From contig CAUJDY010000066.1 in NCBI GenBank assembly GCA_963169805.1, forward strand, positions 1 to 53,817: a stretch of DNA of 53,817 nucleotides, written 5' to 3'. Of the stretch, positions 1-16,862 are shown one piece after another; positions within the stretch are counted from its first letter, which is position 1; every line of letters begins with the position of its first letter. Source of the stretch: Bdellovibrionota bacterium (GTDB lineage: Bacteria; Bdellovibrionota; Bdellovibrionia; Bdellovibrionales; JAEYZS01). The notes beneath the pieces are model-generated. The model saw nothing but the letters and a program-made list of their open reading frames with translations. It made no database searches and had not been told where the DNA came from. Both the position numbers and the translations under genes were made by a program.

Positions 1-630
1 CATCTCAATCAGTATATTGCCTCCCAAGGAATCTCTGTCGTTTCAATTAATTACCGCCTTGTTCCGAAAGCCATATGGCCCGCGCAAAAAGAAGATCTCT
101 CTGCTGCTATTGAGTTTTTAAGAGCCAACCAGTCTGAGTTCAATATTGATATGAACAGATATATTTTGATGGGAAGATCCGCTGGATCACAAATTGCCGG
201 AGTTGTCGCCTATACCATCAAAGATCCCGGCTTAAAAGGGTACATTGATCTCTATGGTCCCACAGATTTAGAGTTTGGTTATGAAATTGCTAATGATACA
301 GATGTCATCGAATCCAAGAAACTTCTCGAAAACTATCTTGGCGGAAATCTTTTTGAGCAAATTGATAATTACAGAAGTGCAAGCATACTCAACTATACAT
401 CTACATCTAATGTGCCTACGCTTATTTTACATGGAAAAATAGATCCCTTGTGCTGGTATAAACATGGAGAGCGCCTTAAGCGCAGATTAGAACACAGAAC
501 AACTCTTGTTGTGGATTTTATATTTCCTCATGCGACACATGGCTTTGATTTTTTCTTAAGCGGTTCATCTGGCCATATCGCAACACAAGCTATTGTTCAG
601 TTTTCTAATGTTTTATTTAATTCTTTTTAA
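1..630 (+). CDS. alpha/beta hydrolase (5' end outside window)
   Basis: The frame is open from base 1, so the N-terminus is missing; the first in-window ATG at 151 is internal. The visible 209 residues show an alpha/beta-hydrolase core: a strand and turn 'SVVSINYRLVP' near the start, the nucleophile elbow G-R-S-A-G just after the internal ATG, a probable acid in 'HGKIDPLCW' and the catalytic His in 'HATHGFD'. The NYRL motif is typical of the acetyl-esterase/BD-FAE type (alpha/beta hydrolase-3 and peptidase S9-like) enzymes. Substrate cannot be told. Its last 14 bases overlap the 3' end of the convergent VWA gene. Confidence 0.8.
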   Translation, partial: HLNQYIASQGISVVSINYRLVPKAIWPAQKEDLSAAIEFLRANQSEFNIDMNRYILMGRSAGSQIAGVVAYTIKDPGLKGYIDLYGPTDLEFGYEIANDTDVIESKKLLENYLGGNLFEQIDNYRSASILNYTSTSNVPTLILHGKIDPLCWYKHGERLKRRLEHRTTLVVDFIFPHATHGFDFFLSGSSGHIATQAIVQFSNVLFNSF

Positions 631-3600
631 GCCACGTATGTAGCTTCTTGCGGGTTTCTGAATCCAATTTTTCTAGAACAGCCTCTGGACTCGTTTGATA
701 TATCTTTGCAATATTCTCCAAATACTGTTGCAAAACTTCACCTTTATGACCAAAAGCCCATCCTTCCGATATTGGACCATCTACTGTGGATAAAAAAACT
801 GTCATCGGAAACTTCAAAGCTTTTTCAGTTTTTTTAGGCTCACTCTCAAGCTCTCTTGCAAGCTTCGTCGCCATGTAGGAATCACTTCGATCTTTCATTT
901 CCCTATGTGCTGATAGCCTTGTAATTTCATTTTTAAGTTTTAACAACAAGTCTCTTCTAAAATTAAAATCAGATTCAGGATCAAAATCCTCTGCTATCTT
1001 TTCTAAGTGCTCTATCTTCTCTTTATGATTGATCAACTCATTTAGCTGATTATGATGAATATGCTGATGGAATACTCTTCCTAAGACACCCTCTCCAGTC
1101 CCACCATTCTCTTTTGCTAAAGCTTCTACTTGGCTGTTCTTTGCACCCAAGGTAATGGCATTTAATATGATATCTACATCTGGACTCACTTTTTTTCTAG
1201 AAACTTCTATTCTAGGTAAATCTAGTGGAGCCTCTCCATCTGTTAAAAAAAGAATGTTAGCATAATCCAACTCACCACCCTCTTTTTGGTGTCTTGCGAT
1301 GTTTTCATAAACAGAAATCAGAGTATCTGTGATATTTGTTCCACCGCCCGCTGATCTTGGATACTCCCTAAATCTCTTAAAGTACTCTTTTGCCTGCTGA
1401 AACCCTGTGACTCTCTCAGAGGCATGTGGACGTGTATCAAATGGAATAAAATAATAAACATGCTCTGCTCTGCCTGTAACCTCATCTATTTGCGTCTTAT
1501 CCAGATAAGATGCTATCAAAGCATTCCTCACTTGATCTTTCACTCCAGCCATCGAACCAGATACATCAAATACAACAATGGTGACGACCTTAGGTATTTT
1601 TGTTTTTGGGTTATTTCGTATTTGCTGATCCGGATAAATATTTTCTAGCATATCCCCTGATATTAATCTAAGAAGATCATCTCTGGGATGAGTGCCATCT
1701 CTATAAAAGTATGGAGCTCTATCTAAATCATCGGCCATATCAAGAAGTGGTTCAGACTCATTCACAGGTACTTTTGGGCCAGTGTAGGCAATTTGTTTTT
1801 TGGGCTTAAATGTTCTGCGATTAAACATATTCAAATAGCTCTTCACTCGTGAAAATCCTATTAGGTCATTTAGATCTCCATTTTTAATCGCATGTGTAAG
1901 CGCTTTCCAATCATACTCTTCCTTAGGATCGCTCGAAGGAAATCTTCTTTGAAGATCAAGGCGCGAGAGTGGACCGACCATCTGAGACATAAACGCCTTT
2001 CCAAGCTCTCTTTCATAGTTTTTGGATCCCATTTTCTTTTGAGCATATATTTCATATGCCCTATTAAGAACCATCTCTTCTTCCGATGTTAAAGAACTAA
2101 CCTCTCTTAATGATTCAAAAAGAGTAATTATAAATCTCAATTTTCTTAAAACTCTTGCGCCAGACTCTTCTCCGACAACAGAAACGCCCAAGTGATCTAA
2201 GTTTTTATAATTTATTTGAGAACTATCCAGAAGTTCATATAACTTGTGCGCCCTTTGTGCATACTGAGCTAAAAATGAAAACTCTGAGTACTGTGACAAA
2301 AGTGAGTCCGCCACACTTCTAAAGTGAGTCAGAGAAGACATGAGTTTTGAGTGTTCAGTATAGTTACGAAGTGTCTCTGCCCATAGCTGATCGATATAGT
2401 TTTTCAGAAAGTCTGCTTTTTGCATAGCATTCATTTCTTCTAAATTTTGCTTCTCCACACGCTGACTGCGAGACTCTTCCTCTTTTTTCTTTCTCTCTTG
2501 ATCTCGCTTTCTTGCCTCTTCTTCTTGTCGCTTTCTTCTCTCTTCTTGAGCCTTTCTTTTTGCTTCTTGCTCAGCACTTAGCTTCTCATCTGGCTTGCGA
2601 TCCTCTGGTGAATTCTCAGTTGTTGCTGGCTCATGGTCTCTTTCTTCTTTAGATTCCTCTTTGTTTTCTAGCAAATTTTTAAAATAATCTGATAGCTTTT
2701 TTGCGATACCATTGTTGCCCTTTTCATTGGAATGGCTTTGGCTTTCTTCTGCTGACTCAGACTGTGATTCTGAGTCAGACTCTTGCCCTTGTTTTTCTTT
2801 CTCTGACTTACTTTTACCTTGTGATTTACCTTTAGACGGCTTTTCCCCTGACTGCCCCTCTTGCTCGCCTTCTTTTCCTTGCCCTCCACTTTCAGATTCT
2901 TTTCCTGGCTGATTCCCTTCTGAACCCTTACCCTCTTGTCCTTCTCCCGGCTTCCCTTCTTTTCCTTCTTGCTTCTCACCTTGATCCTGAGATTCTTGCT
3001 TACCTTGATCTCCTTCTTGTTCAGACTTTTCATTTGAATCTTTTTGCTCCTCTTGACCCTTTTGATCAGAAGACTCTTTATCTTTATCTTGCTGCTCGGG
3101 CTCTTGTTTGTCTGATTTTTGATCTTTCTGCTTTTCTTGCCTTCTTCTCTGTTTTTCTTGTTCTTCCTTGATCTTTTCTTGAATCTTCTTTTTGACCTCT
3201 TCTATCTTTTTATCCATTTCAGACTGTGGCTTTTGCTGCTCTGAATCTTTTGCCTCGTCTCGGTCTACTGGTTCATTTTCTTGATTTTTTTGCTCTTGAT
3301 CTTGCTGCGACTCTTGATCTTTGTTTTGATCTCTTATGTCATCTTGAGTCTTTTCTTTGCTTTGATCTGATTTTTCTTGATCTCTTCTTTGTTCATTTTG
3401 ATCTGAATCTTTTTGCTCAGATTCTCTTTTTTCAGATTCATTATCGCGGTCTTTTTGAGAATTACCCTGCTCTTTGTTTTTCTCTTTCTGTTGCTGAGCT
3501 TGTTCTTCTTGCGATTGTTCTTCTTTTATTTCATCTGCTCGCTGCTTGAGGTAATTCGACTTACGACTCAGTATTCTATATCCTTCAAGCAGCTTTCTTT

Positions 3601-3973
3601 CTTGAGCTGTGATAGTCTTACTTTTGAGTTTATGCATAAGTTGCTTAGCTTTATCTGCTATATTCTGCTCAAATGATTCTATAAATTGCTTTGCATCTTC
3701 TACCGCTACTTCTCCTGATTCTATGAGGCGCTCTAGCATTTGCATTTTTAAAAAATCTGGATGTAATTCTTTAATATCTTCAAGTAATCTTTTAAATGAT
3801 TCTCTAGGATTTGAGACATCCAACACTATCGGGGGAAGCTGTTCTAATTCTTTTTGAATTTGCTCTATCTCCGCTCGCTCGTCTTTTGCTTGAAAGTAAT
3901 CTGTGCGGCAGTGGTCTGCTGCACGCACTTGAATACAAGCCAATAATAAAACGGCTGCGATAATGAGATTCAT
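617..3973 (-). CDS. exported VWA-domain protein with long charged low-complexity linker
   Basis: 1118 residues. Residues 1-19 are a clear Sec signal peptide (hydrophobic IIAAVLLLACI, cleavage after VRA). Residues about 145-510 are low complexity, rich in Gln, Glu, Lys and Ser. A helical region follows, then a VWA domain with complete MIDAS: 'DVSGSMAG' near residue 802, 'GGGTNI' near 876 and 'LTDGEAP' near 912. The C-terminus is helical. The mature protein has a single cysteine (C22), close to the predicted mature N-terminus. The start lies one base after the stop of the upstream AAA+ gene, and its ribosome binding site GGAG lies in that gene's last codons, so translation is probably coupled. 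An AAA+ protein paired with an acidic-linker VWA protein recalls CobS-CobT, BchI-BchD and midasin, but those are cytoplasmic or nuclear. Target unknown. Confidence 0.85.
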   Translation of the reverse strand: MNLIIAAVLLLACIQVRAADHCRTDYFQAKDERAEIEQIQKELEQLPPIVLDVSNPRESFKRLLEDIKELHPDFLKMQMLERLIESGEVAVEDAKQFIESFEQNIADKAKQLMHKLKSKTITAQERKLLEGYRILSRKSNYLKQRADEIKEEQSQEEQAQQQKEKNKEQGNSQKDRDNESEKRESEQKDSDQNEQRRDQEKSDQSKEKTQDDIRDQNKDQESQQDQEQKNQENEPVDRDEAKDSEQQKPQSEMDKKIEEVKKKIQEKIKEEQEKQRRRQEKQKDQKSDKQEPEQQDKDKESSDQKGQEEQKDSNEKSEQEGDQGKQESQDQGEKQEGKEGKPGEGQEGKGSEGNQPGKESESGGQGKEGEQEGQSGEKPSKGKSQGKSKSEKEKQGQESDSESQSESAEESQSHSNEKGNNGIAKKLSDYFKNLLENKEESKEERDHEPATTENSPEDRKPDEKLSAEQEAKRKAQEERRKRQEEEARKRDQERKKKEEESRSQRVEKQNLEEMNAMQKADFLKNYIDQLWAETLRNYTEHSKLMSSLTHFRSVADSLLSQYSEFSFLAQYAQRAHKLYELLDSSQINYKNLDHLGVSVVGEESGARVLRKLRFIITLFESLREVSSLTSEEEMVLNRAYEIYAQKKMGSKNYERELGKAFMSQMVGPLSRLDLQRRFPSSDPKEEYDWKALTHAIKNGDLNDLIGFSRVKSYLNMFNRRTFKPKKQIAYTGPKVPVNESEPLLDMADDLDRAPYFYRDGTHPRDDLLRLISGDMLENIYPDQQIRNNPKTKIPKVVTIVVFDVSGSMAGVKDQVRNALIASYLDKTQIDEVTGRAEHVYYFIPFDTRPHASERVTGFQQAKEYFKRFREYPRSAGGGTNITDTLISVYENIARHQKEGGELDYANILFLTDGEAPLDLPRIEVSRKKVSPDVDIILNAITLGAKNSQVEALAKENGGTGEGVLGRVFHQHIHHNQLNELINHKEKIEHLEKIAEDFDPESDFNFRRDLLLKLKNEITRLSAHREMKDRSDSYMATKLARELESEPKKTEKALKFPMTVFLSTVDGPISEGWAFGHKGEVLQQYLENIAKIYQTSPEAVLEKLDSETRKKLHTWLKKN

Positions 3974-3974
3974 A

Positions 3975-6677
3975 CTACTCCAAGAGAGAATTATTTATTT
4001 TTACGACTGACATATACTCAGACCCATTCGTATAGTTGACATACAACATATCATCAAAAACCCGAATATCATTCACTCTTCCAGAAATCCCAAATACTGC
4101 GCCAGAGACAACGCTACTAGATTCGATTGAAATAGCTGTTAGTCCATAATGAGATCCCACAATTAAATAATCCCCAATAATTACAGCACTATTGAATATT
4201 GTTTTGTAGTAGTCGTGACTTGATGCCATTTCGATTGTTTTTTCTATGATCGGTGCATCCGCTATAAGATTCCTGATTCTTAGTTTCAATTTAAGCGCAC
4301 CCGATATATCTTGGCGACCAATCAAATAGAGAACACCGTTATTAATTACGACTTCTTCTTGTGGACTCGTAGCGACTACTAATCTTTCCGCTTTTCCATC
4401 ACTCTTACTATAAATGTGAACTACTTGCCCTTTAGATGATGTGATATAAATATTTTTTTGATCTGCATGTATTTTATCTTGTGCAGGATTAAAGTTTGCT
4501 AAAATATCACGATCTACAATTGGAAAAACATCCCCCTTTCCTCCCGTTAGTATGTCAAACTCAACCAAGCGAGACATATTCGTATCTAGAACTAATAGTT
4601 TATTGCGCGAATCATTAAGAATAGATGCGCTCTCCAAAACACCATTTGGTAAAACAAAATCTGATTCGATCTTGAGTGTTTTTATATTAAGTAAATAATA
4701 ATTCCTGTTAGCGCCAATTAATACTCTCTCGCCGTCTATTGCTTTAAAATATGTAGGGCTTGCATCAAATAGAAAATCAATATTGGGCTGCATGCCATAT
4801 TTGAAGATATCCGTCTGTTTACCGTTTGCATCAATCTTCTGTATATTTTTTTGTGCATAACTGTAGCCTATTAATTCTTCTGTTCCAGGAATTCTATCTA
4901 CATTTTGATTGTAATCAGACGAAAAATTTGAGCCTCTAGAGAAATGACTGTTATCTTTAAGTTTTGCTGCCATTTCTTTATTACGTCTTGTTGCAGCTTC
5001 TTGTCTTTTCTGTTCTTCTCTCTCCCGAGCTATTCGTTCTTGCTCTTTTCTTTTTTCTTCTTCTACACGAGCCTTTTCTTTTTCAATTCTATCTATTTCT
5101 GCTTGTTTTTTTGTTTGAGCAATTTGCTCTAGCTGCGCTCCTACTACTCTGTGATAATCTTGTCCCAATAAGCTTTCCAGTGTTTGTTTGATATAAAACT
5201 CTACTGTTTCAAAGCCAATTTGCTCTCCTGTTAAATCAGACAAGCGCTCTTCTACAACTTTTTTATCCATCACTTCAACTAAAATCTCTATGAGCTTTTT
5301 TGCTAAATTTTCTTTTTCTTTTTGTGTTTTAGCAGAATCAAGCTCCTGCTGAAGTTGAATGAGAGAATATCCATAGACCACTGTGTTTATTTCTGAGTTG
5401 ATTTGATCAAAGTGTTTAGCGAAGATTTCGCGCTCTTGCTTAATAGCCATGAGCTGAACTTTTTCGTGATTATTAACAGATCTTCCAAGCTCTTGCTCTA
5501 CATACTCTGCTCTTGGACCGTTCAGAGTAAAAAAGACCTCTAATTTTCTGACATCCTCAATTGTTGCCGTCAAAGAACGATTGCCACCAGACTTCAACCA
5601 GTCATGAACAACGATTGCCTTTAGTATGCCACCCGCTTTATTTAAAGTTCTAGGGGACTGATATTTTGTAGCTCTGTATGGGGGCTTTGGGTCTTCGCCG
5701 TTCTTAATTTTATCTTTGTACGACTGTAAGCCACTTTGCTCAAGAGCTTCTGTTTCTTCTTTCATACGAGATCTTAGATGAACCAAAAACTTGGCTACGT
5801 TATCTGGAATTTCAACTTCCGACACAAGGGATCTAATGATATCTAAATCCTGAAATGTCAGTTGTGGAATTTTAATCTTTTGCTTTTTTGCAGTAGTCAC
5901 TAGATCCATTGCACTTTGAGTAAATTCCAAATCAGCCGGAACAAAAATACTAAACGCAAAACGATCTAAAACCGCCTTTGGCCCTTCATTCCCTGCAGCC
6001 TCATAGACCTCTGAAATATATCTATTTGTTGCTGCAATAATAGTCTCAATTTTACCTTTTATGATACGAGGACCTTGCGCATGCGCTCTTTCGTTCATAA
6101 GTACTAGCAAATTTCTGAGAGCATTCGATCGGCTATCAAATATCTCATCCACAAAAACATTTCGAGACATCAACATACCCTCTTCGTATAGGCGCTCGTA
6201 CTTAGAGGTTTGAGAGAGTTTTACATAATCAAGAGGTCCATGTGTTTCTGACATGGTTGTTTCTGGAGTCATTTGTATTTTATAATATGATTTTGTATTT
6301 CCTTGTGCGTCGGTTATGTTCCCAAGAATGATATCTGAAATCATAGATTTTGCATTACCCGGAGGTCCCATGAGCAATACGTGTTCTTTCGCAATCAATG
6401 CAATTTGAATAATGTTTGTAATGTAGTCTCGCTCTTTGAGATATTTTCCCACTGCTTCAAAATAAGTATTAAACTTACTTCTGGCAGCCAACGCGAGCGT
6501 CATTTTCTCTGGTGCCGTTAATGATTCTAACTGATCGCCAGCGAAGACTAAGTTTGATTGCCCTTTTGAGCCAAAAAAACTTTCGCATTGTGTTTGAGCT
6601 TTTACTTGTATTGAAAAAATTAGTAATAGAACTGTTGTTAGCGCAACATTCGTTGCTGATCGCAAATACATCGTCAT
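3975..6677 (-). CDS. exported MoxR-like AAA+ ATPase with coiled coil and C-terminal beta-rich domain
   Basis: I choose the ATG at 6677 (900 residues): it is preceded by GGGGAG at good spacing, whereas the longer frame starts at a TTG (6731) that fits a -35 element. Residues 3-27 form a signal peptide (MYLRSATN, then VALTTVLLLIF, cleavage after QVKA). The AAA+ module has Walker A G-P-P-G-N-A-K-S (about 104-111), Walker B 'NVFVDEIF' (about 175), sensor 1 'IIAATNR' (about 215) and 'LDRFAF' (about 238), all in MoxR/RavA style. A coiled coil spans about 520-572; the C-terminal 310 residues look like beta-propeller strands. Only one cysteine is present after the signal peptide. An exported AAA+ ATPase is odd because the periplasm lacks ATP. 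First gene of a two-gene operon with the VWA protein. Confidence 0.85.
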   Translation of the reverse strand: MTMYLRSATNVALTTVLLLIFSIQVKAQTQCESFFGSKGQSNLVFAGDQLESLTAPEKMTLALAARSKFNTYFEAVGKYLKERDYITNIIQIALIAKEHVLLMGPPGNAKSMISDIILGNITDAQGNTKSYYKIQMTPETTMSETHGPLDYVKLSQTSKYERLYEEGMLMSRNVFVDEIFDSRSNALRNLLVLMNERAHAQGPRIIKGKIETIIAATNRYISEVYEAAGNEGPKAVLDRFAFSIFVPADLEFTQSAMDLVTTAKKQKIKIPQLTFQDLDIIRSLVSEVEIPDNVAKFLVHLRSRMKEETEALEQSGLQSYKDKIKNGEDPKPPYRATKYQSPRTLNKAGGILKAIVVHDWLKSGGNRSLTATIEDVRKLEVFFTLNGPRAEYVEQELGRSVNNHEKVQLMAIKQEREIFAKHFDQINSEINTVVYGYSLIQLQQELDSAKTQKEKENLAKKLIEILVEVMDKKVVEERLSDLTGEQIGFETVEFYIKQTLESLLGQDYHRVVGAQLEQIAQTKKQAEIDRIEKEKARVEEEKRKEQERIAREREEQKRQEAATRRNKEMAAKLKDNSHFSRGSNFSSDYNQNVDRIPGTEELIGYSYAQKNIQKIDANGKQTDIFKYGMQPNIDFLFDASPTYFKAIDGERVLIGANRNYYLLNIKTLKIESDFVLPNGVLESASILNDSRNKLLVLDTNMSRLVEFDILTGGKGDVFPIVDRDILANFNPAQDKIHADQKNIYITSSKGQVVHIYSKSDGKAERLVVATSPQEEVVINNGVLYLIGRQDISGALKLKLRIRNLIADAPIIEKTIEMASSHDYYKTIFNSAVIIGDYLIVGSHYGLTAISIESSSVVSGAVFGISGRVNDIRVFDDMLYVNYTNGSEYMSVVKINNSLLE

Positions 6678-6702
6678 CCCCCACTCCCCAGTAAGAAACA
6701 AA

Positions 6703-6731
6703 AATATCTGCGCAACTTGGTTTTTAATCAA
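6703..6731 (-). promoter_or_regulatory. sigma-70-type promoter for the AAA+/VWA operon
   Basis: On the minus strand, TTGATT (6726-6731) and GATATT (6703-6708) are separated by 17 bases. Transcription would start about 20 bases upstream of the ATG at 6677, leaving room for the GGGGAG ribosome binding site. The match is moderate (4 of 6 bases in each box). It supports the shorter start of the ATPase. Confidence 0.4.
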
Positions 6732-6813
6732 AAAAATTAGTGACTTAGCTTAATTTGAGTAAATTAGATGAAAGGATTGCGTTGGTTTGCACACAACAGT
6801 GTATGAATATTTT

Positions 6814-7308
6814 CTACTGCTGCGCCTGAATATACTTCTTCAGCATATATCCGTTCAATAAAACTAACGTCGTCGCAAGAGCCAGGAACCACTTAAACGG
6901 CGTTAATAGCACGAGCATTGATATCAAGTGCGGTGGTTCAATTGGGTGCGTCCAAAGGACATAAAAGATCATTGATGTCTCTAGCATATCCGCAAAATAA
7001 AGCATTATTGGTAAAATGAGCAGTAGCTTAATTTGTTCTTTATTTGAAAAAAACCGCGCGTAACAGGAAAAGAAAAACCCTGTATAAGAAAAAGTAAATA
7101 CAAAATCTAAGATATTAATTAGAACATATCGCTTTCTGCCATCTTCACCAAGGTCTTGAATAAGCGTCCGCGCTTCATCTGCCATATAAAAAAACTTTTG
7201 ATCTAAAATTGACATAGATCCTTTTACAACCCCGATTGCTGCCAATAAAATTAACGAGCTGATCGTAAAAAATAAAAAAGTTTTTTGTTTTTTGAGAGTA
7301 TCTATCAT
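6814..7308 (-). CDS. four-helix membrane protein of unknown function
   Basis: 164 residues with about four hydrophobic segments (near residues 10-30, 66-86, 94-114 and 133-155) and a short cytoplasmic-looking tail. No enzymatic motif is visible and I do not recognise the family. Its ATG overlaps the serS stop in the ATGA arrangement, so it is translated with serS. A gap of about 136 bases with its own promoter separates it from the AAA+/VWA operon downstream. Confidence 0.7.
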
Positions 7309-8585
7309 TTGATCGTTTCTGATCCAAAGTATGGCACAAGTGCTTTTGGTATTTTCACGCTGCCATCTTCTTGCTGGTAATTTTCAAGTATTGCAATCAG
7401 AGTTCTGCCCACCGCTAAACCAGAACCGTTTAGAGTGTGAACAAATTGAGGCTTGTTTTGCCCTGACTTAAATCGAATATTCGCTCTCCGTGCCTGAAAA
7501 TCTTCACAGTTAGATACAGAAGAAATCTCTCTATAAGCGTTTTGCCCCGGCAGCCATACTTCGATGTCATAGCACTTAGCTGCAGAAAATCCAATGTCCC
7601 CAGAGCAAAGTAAAGAGACTCTGTATGGTAGTTCGAGTTTTTTCAAAATAGATTCGGCGTTTTGAACCATTTTTTCATGTTCTTCATATGAGTTATCAGG
7701 ATGAGCTATTTTGACCAGCTCAATTTTATCAAACTGGTGCTGACGTATTAAGCCCCTTGTATCTTTTCCGTGGCTTCCTGCCTCTGATCTAAAGCACGGA
7801 GTATATGCTGTAAGATAAAATGGGAGTTGAGACTCGTCTAATATTTCGTTTGCAAAATAATTTGTTAGCGGAACTTCTGCCGTTGGTATCAGGTGGTAGT
7901 CTGTATTTGCTAAATGAAAAACATCATCATAAAACTTAGGAAACTGGCCTGTTCCAAAAAGTGATTGGCTGTTTACGATAAACGGAGGGAGAGATTCCGT
8001 GTAGCCGTTTTCCTTGGTTTGTATATCTAACATAAAATTGATAAGTGACCGCTCAAGTCTTGCACCTTGGCCATTCAATATAGCAAACCGCGATCCAGAA
8101 ATTTTTGCTGCTCTTTCGAAGTTCAAGATTCCTAGTTTTTCGCCAATATCAAAATGCTCTTTAGGGTTAAATGAATATTTTTGAGGCTCGCCCACTGTGC
8201 GTACTACTTTATTGTCTGCCTCTGTTGAGCCTGCAGGCACATCTTTATGTAGTTTATTGGGAAGAGTTTTGCAAATTTCTTGAACTTTTAAGTCTGCTTC
8301 TTCTGCATGAGCATAGAGTTTTTTAATCTCTTCGCTCATAACCTTAAGCTTTTCTAATTGCGCGCTTGCGTCTTTGCCTTCTTTTTTTAGCTTTTGAATT
8401 TCTTGAGACTCTTTGTTTTGTTGAGCTTTTTGAGTTTCTGCTTGGTTGATGAGTTTTTTTCTTTCCTGATTAAGATCTAAAAGAGACTCCACAATTGAAA
8501 TATCGCCCTTTCTGTTCTTAAGAGATTCTTTATATTCTTGAAGGTAAACAGAATCTGACTTTTCCAATTGTTTAATATCGATCAT
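7305..8585 (-). CDS. serS: seryl-tRNA synthetase
   Basis: 426 residues, the usual length. It charges tRNA-Ser with serine in the cytoplasm. The N-terminal 110 residues form the long tRNA-binding coiled coil. Class II motif 2 appears as '[17 protein letters not shown]' and motif 3 as '[16 protein letters not shown]'. The 'TAEVPLTN' loop is also present. It lies two bases after a small membrane-protein gene and overlaps the following one by four bases, so it is in the middle of an operon that starts at the HIT gene. Confidence 0.97.
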
Positions 8586-8586
8586 T

Positions 8587-8883
8587 TTATGCTCCAGGAG
8601 CGATCAATATATACATTTTTAAAATCAAGGCAATTAAAACCAAAACAAAATCTAGGGATAAAACTGATACAAAACTCCAGCCTTTTGTGGTCCTAAAAAA
8701 TGCAGCTGTAGAGAGAAAAATTACAAACCAATAGAGAAGCTGACCATAACCTAAGATTTGTTGAAATATAAGTGTCAGGGTTAGGCCTAAAACTAACCCT
8801 GAAAATAGCCTCAGTACAAAAATACCGATGTTTTGAGAGTTTCTTTTTAGCGTCTGTTGCACATTCTCTATAAATTGACCCAT
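8587..8883 (-). CDS. small membrane protein
   Basis: 98 residues with three or four hydrophobic segments after an amphipathic N-terminus ([14 protein letters not shown]). No known motif. Its ATG shares one base with the TAA of the upstream TPR gene (TAATG), a classic coupled junction, and it ends two bases before serS. Function unknown; the coupling suggests a partner of the membrane-anchored TPR protein. Confidence 0.7.
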
Positions 8884-11669
8884 TATGTTCCCCCTAATGT
8901 AGACATTTTTTGCTGTATTTCTTTTCTATCCTCAGCGTTTGGCTTGAGCTCCAGATACCTAGAAAATCCCGCCAACGCTGCATCAATGTCACCTTTTTTT
9001 TCAAAAACAAGACCTTGTTCTTTGTATATCTCTGCATTTCCGCTTTCTTTAGACATGGCAGTTCTAAGCATTGCAGACGCTACATCTAGTTGCCCGAGCA
9101 ATCTATGGCTTTTTGCCATTTCTACATAAAGTTGGGAGTCATTAGGTCTTATTTGAACTGCTCGTCTCAGTTCGTTTACTGCTCTTGCGTAATTCCCATC
9201 TGTAAAAGAAATATCGGCAGCTAAAATATATGGATCTGCCAAAGATGGATTCATTTTTTTTTCTGATTCTGCATATTGTAGTGCCTGCCCTTTACTTCCC
9301 ATCAAGAGAGCAGTTTTTCCGGCCATGTAATAGACCTTTGGATATCTTGGATTGATTTCTAAAACTTTCTGAAAATTCTTAAGAGCCTTTGCCCATGTCT
9401 TTTGATCTCTCATGTAAATTTGTCCCAATTCAAAGAGCGGCTCCGCATTTGTAGGGTCTAGTGCGGAAGCTTTTAAATTACTTTTTATCGACTCATTGAT
9501 TCGACCTTGCAGCAAATAAGCTTTACTCAATAGCATGTGGCCACGATAGTTATTAGGATCAAACTCAACAGCACCTTCGAGCATACGAGTTGCATCCATA
9601 AATCTTTCATCTTTTAAATAAAGAGCACCCAGAGAAACTCTATAATCAGCAATATTAGGAAATGTAGCGATTCTTTCTCCCATGTACTGGGCTGCAGGAT
9701 TTATTCCCTTAAGTCCAAGAAGAGCCTCTGCATAGACCTCATGTGCTTTTATATTATTTGAATCCATTTGTATGGCCTTTGATGAATACTGAAATGCTTT
9801 ATCATACTGCCTCTGAGCTATATAACCAGACGATACAACAATGAGTGATTCTATATCAGAATCGTATAACCTTAGGGCTTGCTCGGCTCTCTTTACAGCG
9901 TCTTGATAATTTTGTCTTCGCAACTCTAATTGCGCATAACCTCTAAAAACTAAATAATTTGTTTTTGCTTCGTTTTGAGCTTTAGCCAGATATTCTGCCG
10001 CAACTTTAAAATCAAATTTTTGTGAATAATAGTCTGCTAGCTTAATATAGCCTTCTATAAACTTGGGGTCTGCTTTTATAGATTTTTGGGCCCATAAAAT
10101 AGCATCATCCGTTTGATTGAGATTCCAAAGGCTCTCAGAAGCCCTCAAAGCAGCCAATGAGTTTTTGGGATTTACTTCAAATGCCGTTTTATATTCTGCC
10201 TGAGCAGCTAAGTAGTTTTTATTTCTAAGGTAATTATCTCCCACAACCATCAATTGGGAATCTTGTGATTTGACATCACTCAAAGCCTCTTCCCCACCCA
10301 AAGACAAAATTGTATCTCTAAGCGCCATGTTTTTGGGGTCTAAACTATATGCCTTTTGTGCATACTCAAGAGCCAGATTTGGATTTGATTTTAAATAGTA
10401 ATTTGCTAGAGCAAAATAACCTCTAACTTTTAGAGGGCTTGGAATTTTATGATTCTTCAAACCTACTTGCAGATAATCTAGGCCTCTAGGATTTGAAAAA
10501 TGTGAAATTTCAATAATGCCGGTTTCTATTTTGGATTTATCATGTTGAGGGTTTATAGCTAAAATATTCTTTAATACTCTGACTGCATTTGAATAATCTT
10601 GAATTTCAGTTCTTATTTGAGCCTCTACAAAAAAAGGCTTAATCCAATTTGGCCACAAAGACTGTGTTTTTTGCAGGTAAGCAATGGCGGGATTTTTTTG
10701 TCCATTCTTATACAACAACTCAGCTTTCATTTCATAGATCACGGCGGCAGTTGGGAAGTCATTTAAAACATTTTGAACCGCCGTAGTGGCGCTTTCTTCA
10801 CTACCCACAAGCATGGCCTGAACGGCTCTACAAGTTGCTCCATGAACATCTAATGCGTTTTCTTTTTGCGCAGACTGTACAAGTGCTGTGAGCGTTTGTA
10901 AGTCTTGTGAATCTTTATATGCAAACGGCCAAAGCTCTCGATAAGCAAGACAAAGTAGCGAAATTGCCTCTGTAGCCTTGGGGTTTGATTCTAGTAGTGT
11001 CGCAAGAATATTTTGCGCTTGGTAGTATCCTTCAAATGTATCAGACTGAAATTCTGAAAGTGCTTTTTGCAAACTTCTTTGAACGTCTTGCTGGCCTAGC
11101 TCCACACGCTTTTGCTGTGGTAACCTAAGGTGAATTTTTTCACCCACTTTTACTTCCGGCTTCTGATCTTCAAAGTAAATATACCCAATTGCGAATAAAC
11201 AAACGAGAGCCGCCAATACCAAAAAAAAGCGGCCATCTTGTTTTTTTTTGATTTGTTCCCTTGGCTTTAGATCAATAATAACTTCTTCAACTGGCGCCTC
11301 TGGCCTTTTACGTTGCTGAGTTGGTGCTTCCTGAGAAGGTCCTTTTTGTGCTGAAAATTCTTCTACAGCTCGACCTCTTTTTTTAGCCTCATCTCGTTGC
11401 TCTGTCACTTTTTGCTCAGGAACAACAAGCTCCTTTTCTATTTCTGCTTGGGTTAGTTCTTTTTTTTCTGAATTTAAAGACTCTAAAACGGCCTCGTAAA
11501 ACTCCGGGTACTTAGAAATTTCGATCCACCTCTGAGTGTTTTGAGGAGATAAGTACTCCTCACCATCGAGTGCCCCTTTTTCAATAAGCTCCATGATTTT
11601 AGAAGTTGTGAATGGACCGTAAATTCGACCTTTTTTATCTTTTAAATTCCAAAGTTGTTCACTCTTCAT
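8883..11669 (-). CDS. GYF-domain, single-TM, multi-TPR protein
   Basis: 928 residues. Residues 5-60 resemble the bacterial GYF_2 domain (WNLKDKKGRIYGPF, then a W-I-E-I-S motif), normally a proline-peptide binder. A charged linker leads to one transmembrane helix at 147-166. From about residue 195 to the end there are many tetratricopeptide repeats (for example 'ALKNFQKVLEINPRYPKVYY'). Topology is probably GYF domain in the cytoplasm and TPRs in the periplasm, which would let it link inside and outside scaffolds. Similar GYF-TPR proteins are known in myxobacteria and Bdellovibrio relatives. Starts 11 bases after the HIT gene. Confidence 0.85.
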   Translation of the reverse strand: MKSEQLWNLKDKKGRIYGPFTTSKIMELIEKGALDGEEYLSPQNTQRWIEISKYPEFYEAVLESLNSEKKELTQAEIEKELVVPEQKVTEQRDEAKKRGRAVEEFSAQKGPSQEAPTQQRKRPEAPVEEVIIDLKPREQIKKKQDGRFFLVLAALVCLFAIGYIYFEDQKPEVKVGEKIHLRLPQQKRVELGQQDVQRSLQKALSEFQSDTFEGYYQAQNILATLLESNPKATEAISLLCLAYRELWPFAYKDSQDLQTLTALVQSAQKENALDVHGATCRAVQAMLVGSEESATTAVQNVLNDFPTAAVIYEMKAELLYKNGQKNPAIAYLQKTQSLWPNWIKPFFVEAQIRTEIQDYSNAVRVLKNILAINPQHDKSKIETGIIEISHFSNPRGLDYLQVGLKNHKIPSPLKVRGYFALANYYLKSNPNLALEYAQKAYSLDPKNMALRDTILSLGGEEALSDVKSQDSQLMVVGDNYLRNKNYLAAQAEYKTAFEVNPKNSLAALRASESLWNLNQTDDAILWAQKSIKADPKFIEGYIKLADYYSQKFDFKVAAEYLAKAQNEAKTNYLVFRGYAQLELRRQNYQDAVKRAEQALRLYDSDIESLIVVSSGYIAQRQYDKAFQYSSKAIQMDSNNIKAHEVYAEALLGLKGINPAAQYMGERIATFPNIADYRVSLGALYLKDERFMDATRMLEGAVEFDPNNYRGHMLLSKAYLLQGRINESIKSNLKASALDPTNAEPLFELGQIYMRDQKTWAKALKNFQKVLEINPRYPKVYYMAGKTALLMGSKGQALQYAESEKKMNPSLADPYILAADISFTDGNYARAVNELRRAVQIRPNDSQLYVEMAKSHRLLGQLDVASAMLRTAMSKESGNAEIYKEQGLVFEKKGDIDAALAGFSRYLELKPNAEDRKEIQQKMSTLGGT

Positions 11670-11680
11670 AAGTGCTTACC

Positions 11681-12025
11681 TTAGTTAAACTTTCCGCTGA
11701 GCTGAGATCCCGCTAATAAATGTAAGTGCAGATGAAAAACGGTTTGTCCGCCATGTTGTCCTGTATTTATCACTGTTCTAAATCCAGATTCTTTAAAACC
11801 TTTTTCTTTGGCTATTTGTAAAGCTGCTTCATACAGAGATGCCATGATATTAGTGTCCGATAATTCAGCTAAACTCGTAACATGAATTTTGGGAATTACG
11901 AGAAAATGGTGCTTTGCTTGTGGATGAATATCTGAGAAGGCATAGACGCTCTCGTTTTCAAAAATTTTTTGGCTTGGAATTTTTCCTTCTATGATTTTGC
12001 AAAACAAACATTCTTGATGCGCCAC
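11681..12025 (-). CDS. HIT-family (HinT-like) nucleotide hydrolase
   Basis: 114 residues, full length for HinT-type proteins. The histidine triad is visible as 'FHLHLHLLAG' near the C-terminus, with 'CLFCKIIEGKIPS' at the start (CxxC as in many HinT proteins). The family hydrolyses purine nucleoside phosphoramidates such as aminoacyl-adenylates, which suits an operon containing serS. The start is GTG, with GGAG six bases upstream. First gene of the unit running to 6814. Confidence 0.93.
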   Translation of the reverse strand: MAHQECLFCKIIEGKIPSQKIFENESVYAFSDIHPQAKHHFLVIPKIHVTSLAELSDTNIMASLYEAALQIAKEKGFKESGFRTVINTGQHGGQTVFHLHLHLLAGSQLSGKFN

Positions 12026-12263
12026 ACCTTACTCCAAGGTCGAGTTCCATCTTGGTTTCTGGCCCCAGAGTGGAACTTTGGTTACTTAAGTATTTGATTT
12101 TTATCAAAAAAATATTTTTTCACCAATGCTTCTCATTTTCAAAGTATCAGTTTGGATTTTTACGCGTCGAGTAATATTAGCCCAGATGCCATAAATTATT
12201 TTTAGTGTTGGCATTCTATTTGCTTATAAAAATTATATTCAAACACACTCGGGGGAGGATGTT
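12026..12263. other. divergent intergenic region
   Basis: 238 bases between the divergent HIT (-) and exported-protein (+) genes. It should carry promoters for both. A 7-bp inverted repeat AGTTCCA/TGGAACT lies at 12043-12077, within the probable leader of the minus-strand operon. The plus-strand gene has a strong ribosome binding site (GGGGGAGG) just before its ATG. No clear -35/-10 pair could be assigned. Confidence 0.3.
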
Positions 12264-12926
12264 ATGTTTAAGTTAGTCATATCAATCTATATCGGTCTCG
12301 TGCTTTTTGCTGCAAGCATTGCAAAAGCAGATTTCCAAAATGCAAGACTACAAAGCCATCAGCAAATTGAACTTCGAGTTACTAATATTGATATCCAACC
12401 CAACTCTGATGTTATCGTGCTAACAGGATCTTCCCCAACTCCGTGTCTGGATACCGTTCGCCCAACACTCAATCTATCAAGAGATTTTTCTCAATTAAAT
12501 ATTCAAGTGTTTGCCAATAACGGTGTGTGTATGAATCCACTTACTGTAAATGGACAGTATCAGATAGCAATTGATCTGAAAGCTTATTTTGCAGAACTTA
12601 GTGTTGCTAAGCCAACAACAATATCAGTAGTAATTGAGAATACTTCTGCAGGTGTGCAGACATTTGAATATGATGTCTTTCCTCAAGCATTCTATCAGTT
12701 TGATAAAGTAGTTAGCGGAGTTGTAGAAAAAGACCACAGAACAAATACGTTCTATCTTCAATCAAATAACTCTCGTATCGAGGTTCTTTCTAGATTTGAC
12801 TTAAATCCTTATCAAAACAAAATGGTAAAAGTTAAGGGACTTATTCCGGGTGAAGTAACAATCGGATTGGGCGCAGAAGAAATTCCATCTCAAATTGTGA
12901 TCGGCCAACTCATCAGCATGAAGTAA
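12264..12926 (+). CDS. small exported protein of unknown function
   Basis: 220 residues. A signal peptide covers residues 1-22 (hydrophobic SIYIGLVLFAASIA, cleavage after KA before DFQNA). The rest is predicted mostly beta, without recognisable motifs; two cysteines (in 'TPCLDT' and 'GVCMNP') could pair. The start is set by a strong GGGGGAGG site. The gene stands alone and is followed by an inverted repeat that also serves convergent murA. Periplasmic or surface location is inferred. Confidence 0.75.
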   Translation: MFKLVISIYIGLVLFAASIAKADFQNARLQSHQQIELRVTNIDIQPNSDVIVLTGSSPTPCLDTVRPTLNLSRDFSQLNIQVFANNGVCMNPLTVNGQYQIAIDLKAYFAELSVAKPTTISVVIENTSAGVQTFEYDVFPQAFYQFDKVVSGVVEKDHRTNTFYLQSNNSRIEVLSRFDLNPYQNKMVKVKGLIPGEVTIGLGAEEIPSQIVIGQLISMK

Positions 12927-12932
12927 TCTACC

Positions 12933-13007
12933 AAAAGGCGCCTGCCGACTTTTTGATGCAAGGTGCGTCTAGCGCTCCGTGTATCAAAAAGTCGGCAGGC
13001 GCCTTTT
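12933..13007. terminator. bidirectional terminator, 25-bp perfect inverted repeat
   Basis: Arms 12933-12957 and 12983-13007 are perfect reverse complements (core GGCGCCTGCCGAC) around a 25-base loop. The right arm ends in a T run on the plus strand and the left arm starts with A residues, giving a U tract in both directions. It sits between the stop of the exported protein and the stop of murA, so it can end both transcripts. Confidence 0.8.
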
Positions 13008-13008
13008 T

Positions 13009-14265
13009 TTATTCTTTTACTCGTTTGATTTTTCCACCCAAAGACATGAGCTTTTCTTCTAAACGCTCATAACCTCTGTCTAAGTGATAAATTCGACTAA
13101 CCGTCGTTTCCCCTGTCGCTGCCAACCCAGCCAAAACCAAACACGCAGAAGCACGAAGATCTGTAGCCATAACAGGTGCTCCCTTGAGAACGCCAGGCTT
13201 TCCTCTGACAATAGCTACCTGTGTGCGTGAGGTAATATCTGCATTTAAGCGCATAAGCTCTTGAACGTGCATAAATCTATTTTCAAAAATATTTTCTGTA
13301 ATAATACATGGTCCATTTGCAATACACATCAACGCCATATACTGAGCCTGTAAGTCTGTTGCAAATCCTGGATACGGCATTGTTTGAATATCAACGCCCT
13401 TCCAGCTTTTCGCAGGTCTTACTGTCACCGATGTTTTTTCTTGATCGATTTTAAAACCCGCCTCTCTCATTTTAACAATAAGAGATTCAAAATGCTGAGG
13501 GATACAATTCTCAACTGTTACTTCTCCGCCTGTAATTGCACCTGCTATCAAAAGTGTTCCCGCTTCAATTCTATCTGGAATCACGGCGTGCTCTGCTGGG
13601 GTTAGTTTTGAAACACCCTGAATAGTTAAAATACTTGTACCTATACCAGAAATCTTTGCGCCCATTTTTACAAGATAATTAGCAAGGTCATCTATCTCAG
13701 GTTCTTTTGCTGCATTCTCAATGATTGTTTCGCCCTCAGCAAGAACTGCCGCCATAAGGGCGTTTTCCGTTCCACCTACAGTAACTCCATCAAATACGAT
13801 TCGTGCACCCTTGAGTTTTTTTGTGCGCGCTATCACGTATCCTTCTTGAATATCTATCTCAGCACCCAAAGCTTTCATTGCTTCTAAGTGCTTATCAATA
13901 GGACGAGTTCCAATCGCACAGCCTCCTGGCAAACTCACTACTGCTTCTCCATATCTTGCAAGTAGTGGCCCTAAACACAAAATGGAAGCCCTCATTTTTC
14001 TTACAAGATCGTAGGGCGCCTTGTGTGTATCTGACATATTTGTTTCTACAATATATTTTTCGCCATCTCGATGCGCTTTTGATCCCAAGTGAGCTAATAA
14101 AGTTTCTGTTGAGAGAATATCCTGAAGGTTTGGAACGTTTGTAAAAATATGACGTCCATTACACAAAAGCGTTGCAAATAACAAAGGTAGTGATGAGTTT
14201 TTTGCTCCGCTTGTTTTAACACGCCCATTTAGTTGCGTTTGTCCTAGGATTGATATTTTGTCCAT
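13009..14265 (-). CDS. murA: UDP-N-acetylglucosamine 1-carboxyvinyltransferase
   Basis: 418 residues, family length. It transfers enolpyruvate from PEP to UDP-GlcNAc, the first committed step of peptidoglycan synthesis. The N-terminal substrate Lys-Asn is in 'SGAKNSSLP' (K22, N23), and the catalytic cysteine loop is '[14 protein letters not shown]' (C116), the fosfomycin-sensitive form. It overlaps the end of prmC by 22 bases and is the last gene of the prfA-prmC-murA unit, closed by the terminator at 12933-13007. Confidence 0.97.
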
Positions 14266-15170
14266 GAATTGTCCTTCTCTGTTTTTTTGACAGATATAAT
14301 AAACCGATCTTTGCCCGAATAATCCTGCGCTAGTTCTATCTTATCAAAAAAACCACTGCTGCCTACTATCTTTTGCGCTGCTATACCTTGAGTGTATCCT
14401 ATTTCAAAAATCCACAACCCTCCGGGCTTTAATAAGCTACCCGCCAAGGCTGTCCACAATTTAATTTTCTCTAAACCTTGTTCTCCACAATATAAAGCTT
14501 CATGAGGCTCATATTTGTGAACGTTTTTTTCAACCTCTGTGTCTGCCTCTGCAATATAAGGTGGATTCGAAACAATCAAATCATACAGACCTGTAAAGCC
14601 TTTTGCTTTAAGATCATCAAAATTTCGGTAGTCCATTTGATCTGCATTGCCTCTTTTAAAATAAAACCGCTCTTGCACGGCATGACTCTTGGCATTTTGC
14701 TGGGCTACTTTTTCGGCCACTTCAGAAATATCTACAGCAACAACATTTAAATTACTGACTTCCTTTAGCATGGAAACAGCAATACACCCAGAGCCCGTTC
14801 CTATGTCGAGCGCCCATATTTCTTCTGCTTGTTGAGAGTGTTTTTCTTCAATCCAGTGAAGCGCATACTCAACTAAAAGTTCTGTTTCTGGCCTAGGAAT
14901 TAAAACTCCCGGCTCAACATGAAATGTATAATTCAAAAAATCTTTTTTATTTGTGATATATGCTACCGGCTCTCCTTGAATTCGCCTCTCAATTTTTTGA
15001 AGACACGAAGATAATGTCATGGGTGAAATTTCTTTCTGTGACTGTATATAAAGATCTTCTCTACGGCACATTAAGGTATCAGAAATAATTAGTTCAGCAT
15101 CTAAGCGAGCACTTGCCGAAGTAGATTTTAAAAACAGGGTTGCCTGTTGTAATAAGTCTGTGATTTTCAA
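14244..15170 (-). CDS. prmC: release-factor glutamine N5-methyltransferase
   Basis: 308 residues. The SAM-binding motif 'ALDIGTGSGCIAVSML' and the catalytic 'SNPPYIAEAD' motif identify PrmC/HemK, which methylates the glutamine of the GGQ motif in RF1 and RF2. The N-terminal helical domain is present. It overlaps the prfA 3' end by four bases, so enzyme and substrate are co-translated. Confidence 0.96.
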   Translation of the reverse strand: MKITDLLQQATLFLKSTSASARLDAELIISDTLMCRREDLYIQSQKEISPMTLSSCLQKIERRIQGEPVAYITNKKDFLNYTFHVEPGVLIPRPETELLVEYALHWIEEKHSQQAEEIWALDIGTGSGCIAVSMLKEVSNLNVVAVDISEVAEKVAQQNAKSHAVQERFYFKRGNADQMDYRNFDDLKAKGFTGLYDLIVSNPPYIAEADTEVEKNVHKYEPHEALYCGEQGLEKIKLWTALAGSLLKPGGLWIFEIGYTQGIAAQKIVGSSGFFDKIELAQDYSGKDRFIISVKKTEKDNSWTKYQS

Positions 15171-16246
15171 TTTGTTGTAGCTCCTGATTGTCTCAGGGCT
15201 TGAGCTTGGAAGTTTGCAATTAGAGGATCAATAAGCACGGCCATATCTCCTTCCATCACAGAATTTATCTGGTGCGTAGTAAAGTTAATTCTATGATCTG
15301 TCACCCGTGACTGTGGGAAGTTGTATGTTCGAATTCTCTCGGAGCGATCTCCCGTTCCAATTTGTGCGAGTCTTTTTTCTGAATTTTCTCGCATACGCTT
15401 TTCTTCTTCAAGCGCTTGCAGCCGAGCTGCTAAAATCTTAAGAGCTTTTTGTTTGTTAGAAAGTTGAGATTTTTCATCTTGGCAAACAACCATCAAGTTT
15501 GTTGGAATGTGAGTAATGCGAACAGCCGAATCGGTTGTATTCACACTCTGCCCGCCAGCGCCTCCTGAACGAAAAACATCTATTCTTAAGTCATTTTGAT
15601 TAATATTAACTTCGATTTCATCAACTTCCGGAAGAACTGCTACCGTTATTGTAGATGTGTGAATGCGGCCCTGTGTTTCTGTCTTAGGAACTCTTTGAAC
15701 TCTGTGTACACCACTCTCAAACTTTAATTTGCTATAAACCTTTTGACCTGAAATTGTAGCGATAACTTCTTTGAATCCACCTACTGGAGAATTTGAAAGA
15801 GACATCATCTCAACACGCCAATTATTTTTATTTGCATAGTGTACATAAGCTCGAAAAAGTTCTTCACAGAAAAGAGAAGCCTCATCTCCCCCCGCTCCTG
15901 CTCGAATTTCTAGAATTATGTTTTTATCGTCGTTAGGATCCTTCGGAAGTAACAGAATTTTAAGTTGCTCCGTTACACTTGCCAGCTCTTTTTCTATCGC
16001 TGGCAATTCTTCCTTTGCCATTGCTCTCAACTCTTCATCTTTTTCGTTTACAAGAATGTCTTTATTATCATTTTTTTGCTTATCTAAATTCTTGTAGTGC
16101 CTATAGACCTCTACAATTTCCTTAAGATTTGAATACTCCTTCATCATTTGAGAGTATTTTTTTGAATCTGATACAGCATCAGGTAAAGTCAGCCTCATAC
16201 CGATTTCTTCGTATTTTTTTTCGACTTCATCAAGCTGCTTAAACAT
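15167..16246 (-). CDS. prfA: peptide chain release factor 1
   Basis: 359 residues, family length. It reads UAA/UAG stop codons. The stop-recognition PxT motif is PKT in 'RVQRVPKTETQGRIHTS', which marks RF1 rather than RF2. The catalytic GGQ is in 'RSGGAGGQSVNTTDSAV'. The N-terminal coiled-coil domain is complete. First gene of the prfA-prmC-murA unit; a terminator separates it from rpmE upstream. Confidence 0.97.
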   Translation of the reverse strand: MFKQLDEVEKKYEEIGMRLTLPDAVSDSKKYSQMMKEYSNLKEIVEVYRHYKNLDKQKNDNKDILVNEKDEELRAMAKEELPAIEKELASVTEQLKILLLPKDPNDDKNIILEIRAGAGGDEASLFCEELFRAYVHYANKNNWRVEMMSLSNSPVGGFKEVIATISGQKVYSKLKFESGVHRVQRVPKTETQGRIHTSTITVAVLPEVDEIEVNINQNDLRIDVFRSGGAGGQSVNTTDSAVRITHIPTNLMVVCQDEKSQLSNKQKALKILAARLQALEEEKRMRENSEKRLAQIGTGDRSERIRTYNFPQSRVTDHRINFTTHQINSVMEGDMAVLIDPLIANFQAQALRQSGATTN

Positions 16247-16290
16247 GATTTTCCCTTTAATGACCTATTAAGAACACCTGCTTATGATAC

Positions 16291-16317
16291 AAAAAAACCT
16301 CGTCTATGCGAGGTTTT
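16291..16317 (-). terminator. rpmE intrinsic terminator
   Basis: On the minus strand a 7-bp stem AACCTCG/CGAGGTT with a six-base loop is followed by seven T residues (16291-16297 complement). It lies between the rpmE stop and the prfA start, so prfA transcription probably starts afresh or by read-through. Confidence 0.8.
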
Positions 16318-16343
16318 TGAAAGAAAAAAAGAATGATAATAAA

Positions 16344-16577
16344 CTACTTGTTTGCTGATGGTCTTTTTGCTGCTGCCGCAAGATTTCCGTAACGTTTGTT
16401 GAATTTTTCTACTCGCCCTTCACTATCCAGGAGTTTTTGCGTTCCTGTAAAGAATGGGTGGCAACTGCTGCAAATATCTACGCGGATTTCTTTCTTAGTA
16501 GATTTTGTAGTCCATGAAGTTCCACAAACACATGTAACTTGTGAATCGTTATATTCTGGATGGATATTTGGTTTCAT
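16344..16577 (-). CDS. rpmE: ribosomal protein bL31
   Basis: 77 residues. The zinc-binding (C+) form is shown by 'CVCG' near residue 16 and '[10 protein letters not shown]' near residue 36. It is part of the 50S subunit bridging to 30S. The C-terminus has an Ala/Lys-rich extension ([13 protein letters not shown]). A good ribosome binding site AAAGGAAG precedes the ATG. Upstream there is a 275-base leader/promoter region with possible regulatory structure. Confidence 0.97.
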
Positions 16578-16632
16578 CTGACTTCCTTTAATAATAAGGT
16601 GAAATAGATCGCATCCTTTTGCTGGAAAATCA

Positions 16633-16694
16633 AGCGGTTCAAAGGATTTATCACTTTATTTCTCAGGAGGAATACTCCCCATTATTTAACCGCT
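16633..16694 (-). promoter_or_regulatory. candidate structured leader of rpmE
   Basis: A 7-bp stem AGCGGTT/AACCGCT (16633-16639 with 16688-16694) encloses a small GGAG/CTCC hairpin. It begins about 55 bases upstream of the bL31 start. Autoregulatory bL31 leaders are known in several phyla; whether this is one is inference. Confidence 0.35.
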
Positions 16695-16728
16695 ACTGCC
16701 TAATTTAAAGTATCTCACACAACATAGA

Positions 16729-16750
16729 GTGTTTAAGAGATCTTAAACAC
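16729..16750. promoter_or_regulatory. 9-bp inverted repeat upstream of rpmE
   Basis: GTGTTTAAG and CTTAAACAC are separated by four bases and have no adjacent T run, so this looks more like an operator than a terminator. A perfect DnaA-box sequence TTATCCACA lies 12 bases further at 16762-16770. The two could regulate the rpmE promoter; no repressor is identified. Confidence 0.3.
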
Positions 16751-16828
16751 TACACACAGGTTTATCCACAGCAGTATTGACTTGTTGCATCATAAAGAGA
16801 TCTACTACTTTCCCTTGGCCAATTTTAA

Positions 16829-16862
16829 AAATAAGTAAGTATTTTCAAATACTTACTTATTT
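16829..16862 (-). terminator. A/T-rich hairpin overlapping the rho stop codon
   Basis: Arms 16829-16844 and 16847-16862 are a perfect 16-bp inverted repeat. On the minus strand the hairpin begins within the last rho codons and is followed by TTTTTAAAAT. It is rich in A-T pairs, so as an intrinsic terminator it would be weak to moderate. Confidence 0.5.

Follow-up and report, generated by a model that had tools for sequence, protein, structure and literature searches.

A MoxR-type AAA+ ATPase and its VWA partner, both predicted to be exported, in Bdellovibrionota

Introduction

Bacterial AAA+ ATPases are treated as cytoplasmic proteins, ATP being thought absent from the periplasm. Here, we analyzed a contig of 53,817 nts from a Bdellovibrionota bacterium (CAUJDY010000066.1; this whole stretch is hereafter called the window), in which an AAA+ motor and a VWA protein are encoded side by side and both begin with what looks like a Sec-type signal peptide. 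The locus raises the question of whether these proteins really leave the cytoplasm and, if they do, what an exported motor could work on and with which fuel.

Results

Gene pair and domain architecture

The original prediction had described an exported AAA+/VWA gene pair here, and its coordinates proved exact, with the motor motifs, the MIDAS and a gap of a single nucleotide between the genes all present (Table 1). Both genes lie on the minus strand: the AAA gene runs from an ATG at 6677, preceded by a GGAG-type ribosome site, to a stop at 3975, and the VWA gene from an ATG at 3973 to a stop at 617.

Table 1. Features of the predicted exported AAA-VWA pair in the window
Feature	Position	Strand	Basis or remark
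AAA gene (predicted exported MoxR-type AAA+ ATPase, helical region, C-terminal beta-propeller)	3975..6677	-	900 aa; ORF, ATG and SD, Pfam, AlphaFold model and Foldseek
AAA predicted Sec-type signal peptide, residues 1-27	6597..6677	-	cleavage predicted after VKA; kept in 34/34 family members
Cys31, motif C-x3-F (CESFF)	6585..6587	-	sole Cys of the mature AAA protein
bpMoxR/AAA_5 core, residues 70-246	5940..6470	-	Pfam; RavA match
Walker A GPPGNAKS, residues 104-111	6345..6368	-	Gly and Lys invariant in all exported homologue domains
Walker B Asp177-Glu178 (VFVDE)	6144..6149	-	invariant
Sensor-1 Asn218	6024..6026	-	invariant
Arg239, putative arginine finger (LDRF)	5961..5963	-	invariant
Beta-propeller, residues ~591-893, about 28 strands	3999..4907	-	model of moderate confidence; WD40/Tako8/BamB propeller matches
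VWA gene (predicted exported VWA protein, 1118 aa)	617..3973	-	one base downstream of the AAA gene
VWA predicted signal peptide, residues 1-18	3920..3973	-	cleavage predicted after VRA; 22/22 scorable VWA partners
Cys22	3908..3910	-	sole Cys of the mature VWA protein
Low-complexity E/Q/K/S linker, residues 151-507	2453..3523	-	composition
VWA domain, residues ~795-960	1094..1591	-	fold-search matches to VWA domains including the Rea1/MDN1 MIDAS
MIDAS DVSGS, residues 803-807, and Asp912 in LTDG	1553..1567	-	sequence and alignment

The window AAA protein has a single AAA domain and matches the bpMoxR family of Pfam (PF20030) with 80.1 bits (cut-off 27, 1.5e-22) as well as AAA_5; E. coli RavA is its best PDB match, and the sensor-2 Arg is also present. 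A structure model built from this protein and eight homologues (mean pLDDT 71.7) predicts an AAA module, a long helical region and then ~28 strands. Foldseek matched RavA to the first part of the model and WD40-type propellers to the last (E down to 1e-11), with moderate TM-scores and a propeller region modelled with moderate confidence. The motor motifs had been read correctly in the original prediction, but the C-terminal propeller and the single Cys after the signal peptide had been missed. The proposed likeness to CobS-CobT, BchI-BchD and midasin is loose, the nearest kin being bpMoxR and RavA. The ChlI-type AAA family of Mg-chelatase (PF01078) scored 16.4 bits against a cut-off of 20.3, no CobS or CobT family was matched in Pfam or NCBIfam, and midasin has six AAA modules compared with one here. 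In a model of its C-terminal 608 residues, the VWA protein shows a VWA domain set between a helical domain and a helical tail, and Foldseek matched this model to VWA domains in large number, the Rea1/MDN1 MIDAS among them.

The Pfam VWA_2 match of the VWA protein is weak and below its cut-off; the Asp, both Ser and the distal Asp of the MIDAS are invariant across 9 aligned homologues. The linker comprises 357 residues (E 22%, K 17%, Q 16%, S 11%). Each mature protein of the pair contains one Cys, located a few residues past the signal peptide. Upstream of the pair there is a gene for a 164-aa hydrophobic protein, followed by a SerS-like gene, and positions 151-630 (+) hold the 3' part of an alpha/beta-hydrolase-like gene, which is cut by the contig end and convergent with the VWA gene.

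Conservation of the export signals

Homologues were searched in 60 relatives, 141 genomes of the order and 369 of the phylum, and DNA was taken from about 28 genomes; many genomes are fragmented assemblies, and genome-wide counts were made on stretches of sequence. This gave over 30 members of the family, not counting ordinary cytosolic MoxR proteins. Signal peptides were scored by one home-made heuristic with a stricter and a looser cut, and the same rule was used for all sets. Both window proteins have a tripartite signal, in which a short segment, positively charged or neutral, is followed by a hydrophobic core and then by a site of the AxA type. The AAA protein begins with MTMYLRSATNVALTTVLLLIFSIQVKA/QTQC (the slash marks the predicted cleavage; the core ends in IFSIQVKA) and the VWA protein with MNLIIAAVLLLACIQVRA/ADHC (core end ACIQVRA). 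By this heuristic, a signal-like N-terminus is present in all 34 family AAA proteins of Bdellovibrionota at the looser cut and in 31/34 at the stricter one, and in 22/22 and 21/22 of the scorable VWA partners, respectively. The stricter cut was reached by none of 20 cytosolic MoxR proteins, none of 38 VWA proteins from other phyla and 5 of 78 AAA homologues from other phyla. Two VWA genes, L048 and L163, were left unscored. In L048 (5821-10552), the partner's signal peptide is encoded in one frame and its VWA domain in another across a stretch of repetitive sequence, through a frameshift or an assembly error; the VWA gene of L163 is split and contains unknown bases.

The hydrophobic cores of the exported set are short, mostly about 8-20 uncharged residues, the n-region is positive in most members, and no further membrane segment was found past the signal peptide in the AAA proteins. 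With these features and the AxA-type sites, a topology in which the motor stays in the cytoplasm, as the original prediction had considered, fits poorly, and both window proteins are predicted to be exported by Sec. Tat export was rejected, as the sole regex match sits upstream of the likely start. Depletion of Cys was also discarded as a proof of export, since Cys is just as scarce in cytosolic MoxR proteins from the same order. The same applies to the post-signal motif C-x3-[FLY] as a mark specific to this system, because about 6/30 other sampled signal-bearing proteins of the window's genome share it; it also occurs in one protein of a genome presumed to be HD100, and a with/without comparison gave no clear difference. 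On other contigs of the window's genome (L059, L060, L190 and L193), at least six other exported proteins carry C-x2-[YF]-F or a near form after the signal.

Outside the phylum, the closest bpMoxR proteins from Bacteroidota and Planctomycetota have no signal, the domain itself forming their N-terminus. A homologue is present in some 90/195 Myxococcota genomes, usually as a single copy and with ~820 residues in those read; these proteins (L213-L240, L210) have the P-loop GPPGTAKS, no signal peptide and 3-6 Cys each, and in L210 a VWA gene adjoins the bpMoxR gene. This ~820-aa protein is apparently a cytosolic counterpart. Two small genomes of the Myxococcota set, G552 and G553, are exceptions with a signal-like N-terminus. 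No match was found at 1e-42 in 246 Planctomycetota and 299 Pseudomonadota genomes, in a search run without a positive control. Export of both partners, which had been singled out as an oddity of this locus, therefore appears to be a real peculiarity: the predicted signal is conserved phylum-wide and absent from the closest relatives outside Bdellovibrionota. In the free tree, the window's clade sits beside bpMoxR of Planctomycetota/Bacteroidota, and monophyly of the exported set is not rejected by a tree test (p-AU 0.134). Export may thus have arisen once or twice.

Conservation of the pairing and of the ATPase site

The AAA and VWA genes are neighbours wherever the contig permits, about two thirds of the pairs being tandem and the others divergent. 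Gene adjacency is thus conserved along with the signal peptides, a check that the original prediction had proposed, with the exception of G200, which has five divergent AAA copies and no recognisable VWA gene. These copies (L164-L168) are predicted to be exported and lack the post-signal Cys (5-9 Cys in those scored); one of them ends in WD40 repeats (L164) and one is cut by a stop.

Every complete AAA domain, whether the first or the second of its protein, retains the Gly and Lys-Ser/Thr of Walker A, the Asp-Glu of Walker B, the Asn of sensor 1 and the Arg of the finger; two truncated domains are left unscored downstream. When ten diverse members were aligned, 15 columns showed no variation, mostly catalytic-site residues. 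As catalytic residues are kept in every AAA domain recovered, ATP use is probably under selection; in an ATP-free place without ATP use, the loss of some of them would be expected.

Variable third components in relatives

The window pair has no adjoining third component (a variable N-terminus with TPR or propeller). Several relatives encode, next to the pair, exported proteins of about 400-550 residues that share the post-signal Cys; these contain either WD40-type or ACSF4-type propellers (L053, L146, L147, L159) or a domain of the FGE-sulfatase kind, which has the C-type-lectin fold (L159 and L163, and L161 judging from similarity). The propeller protein and the FGE protein of L159 resemble each other, which we take to reflect a shared N-terminal part. 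Such domains are also fused to the AAA protein itself, FGE in L049 and WD40 in L164. The window pair has no FGE, transglutaminase or separate propeller addition, its propeller being fused to the motor.

Some of these components occur in arrays. Three closely similar exported beta-propeller genes lie in tandem beside the AAA-VWA pair in L053 (11903-16730), and about 12 FGE-sulfatase/C-lectin-fold genes follow directly downstream of an exported AAA-VWA pair in L241 (G352:C240:17000-36999, genes ~2792-17878), most of their products having a signal peptide that is closely followed by a Cys. In addition, ten tandem paralogues that are unlinked to the AAA-VWA pair of their genome were observed in L243 (G161:C1:16000-35999, 4088-15358). 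Their N-terminal part is ~90% conserved, the C-terminal part strongly variable and the end constant (G[FL]RLVRT.KK), so that this array looks like a diversified recognition repertoire. Many VWA partners carry an addition as well: those of L049, L050, L051, L053, L054 and others have a transglutaminase-like domain (PF01841) N-terminal to VWA, whose presumed active-site Cys is among the few other Cys of these proteins. Outside the clade of the window, most VWA partners keep the motif [FV][NQ]C[DS] of this domain.

Comparison with known systems

The closest described arrangement is that of the MoxR-vWA-beta-propeller ternary systems, which have been proposed as candidate conflict systems (Kaur et al. 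2020, PMC7159879, subsystem 4). A bpMoxR domain above cut-off, an adjacent vWA gene, a beta-propeller and a P-loop ending in A-K-S are common to both. The ternary P-loop variant is GXXXTAKS, compared with GPPGNAKS in the window, GPAGTAKS in the relative L048 and GPPGTAKS in the relatives L151 and L153. However, the propeller of the ternary systems is C-terminal to vWA, whereas here it is on the MoxR protein and the model after VWA is helical; moreover, both window proteins have signal peptides and there is no linked third component. No mention of signal peptides or secreted proteins was found in the main text of the paper (PMC7159879), and no report of an exported MoxR protein was found in a search of open-licence papers.

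Among other candidates, RavA-ViaA of E. coli is also a MoxR and VWA gene pair but is cytoplasmic and lacks a propeller, and the NCBIfam RavA model gave 55 bits for the window AAA protein against a cut-off of 681. The Myxococcota pair belongs to the same Pfam family as the window AAA protein but has no signal peptide. NorQ-NorD, in which a MoxR hexamer works with a VWA partner whose MIDAS holds the substrate, offers a model of how the pair may work, although it acts from the cytoplasm on cNOR and has neither signal peptides nor a propeller (PMC9976466). FGE/C-lectin sensors tied to MoxR, as in the relatives here, are known among the DGR-diversified MoxR-associated sensors (PMC10907252), where one sensor target is predicted to be secreted and the signal peptide is not on the MoxR ATPase. 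A known anti-phage system was rejected, neither window protein having a PADLOC match.

Discussion

We consider it about an even chance that the pair represents a MoxR-vWA-beta-propeller ("bpMoxR") system in an exported form, acting as a recognition or remodelling machine outside the cytoplasm. The signal peptides, pairing, intact ATPase site, intact MIDAS and propeller fold found here point to this reading, as do the exported propeller/FGE flanks elsewhere and the absence of the signal in Myxococcota orthologues and other phyla. Both subunits would be secreted unfolded via Sec and then lose their signal peptides. Outside the inner membrane, a MoxR ring with a docked VWA partner would assemble by analogy with its homologues NorQ and NorD in the cytoplasm, and a ligand would be recognised by the motor-fused propeller or, in relatives, by the separate exported propeller or FGE/lectin-fold proteins. 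More speculatively, the motor might remodel or release the partner bound by VWA with the help of ATP present outside the cytoplasm, and this ATP may be both its fuel and its trigger; lysis of neighbours or prey as the source is a guess. Bacteria do release ATP (PMC11335348, PMC6335424). Several points count against the reading: the periplasm is commonly regarded as free of ATP (PMC11335348), the signal peptides were scored by a home-made heuristic, no separate third component adjoins the window pair, and the sporadic distribution offers no phenotype to which a function could be tied. Only tentatively, we further suggest that Bdellovibrionota own a class of extracytoplasmic AAA+ machines for which ATP set free by damaged cells is both fuel and gate, and which VWA adaptors link to exported recognition proteins of the propeller or lectin fold, in sets that can expand, as an extracytoplasmic counterpart of the MoxR-vWA conflict systems.

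Alternatively, the proteins may be exported but need their nucleotide site only for assembly or as a structural element, turning over little or no ATP; the ring would then be a scaffold for propeller and VWA, both ordinary extracytoplasmic binding modules, in keeping with a periplasm regarded as free of ATP (PMC11335348). We regard such a scaffold as rather unlikely. If the fold were nothing more than a scaffold, the catalytic Glu or Lys should have disappeared from some lineages, yet highly diverged proteins, and second AAA domains too, retain the Lys of Walker A, the Glu of Walker B, the sensor-1 Asn and the finger Arg. The interior of a victim would supply the ATP that a motor lacks outside, and with predators in the lineage the proteins might enter a prey or competitor cell and run on its ATP. 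This idea of action inside prey, raised in the original prediction, found no support and seems improbable. No delivery gene is linked to the pair within the window, and at the cut-offs used no homologue was detected in the genome identified as B. bacteriovorus HD100, in nearly all other genomes of its genus, or in a second predator genome, which we take to be B. exovorus JSS. Therefore, the pair is not needed for predation as these presumed species do it, and a role in predation is weakened.

It is just as doubtful that the N-terminal segments fail to export, through an inefficient signal or a reversed anchor, and that the pair works like RavA-ViaA. All characterised MoxR-VWA pairs are, to our knowledge, cytoplasmic, and the paucity of Cys noted above proves nothing about export; against this stand cleavable-type signals on both partners and on the flanking third components, kept at very low overall identity, the short hydrophobic cores and the orthologues elsewhere without signals.

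Since export signals and catalytic residues are both kept phylum-wide, the assumption that AAA+ ATPases work only in the cytoplasm becomes directly testable, with two outcomes: either ATP can be had outside the cytoplasm, or an AAA+ ring that looks catalytic does its work without hydrolysing any. If the preferred reading of an exported bpMoxR variant is correct, a family of proposed conflict systems would have its place outside the cell, in a phylum known for preying on other cells. Homologues were found in about 27 of the 369 phylum genomes. The AAA and VWA proteins of L157 (G272) and L052 (G046) are 73-75% identical across different orders, which exceeds the identity between some families of the same order and suggests horizontal transfer.
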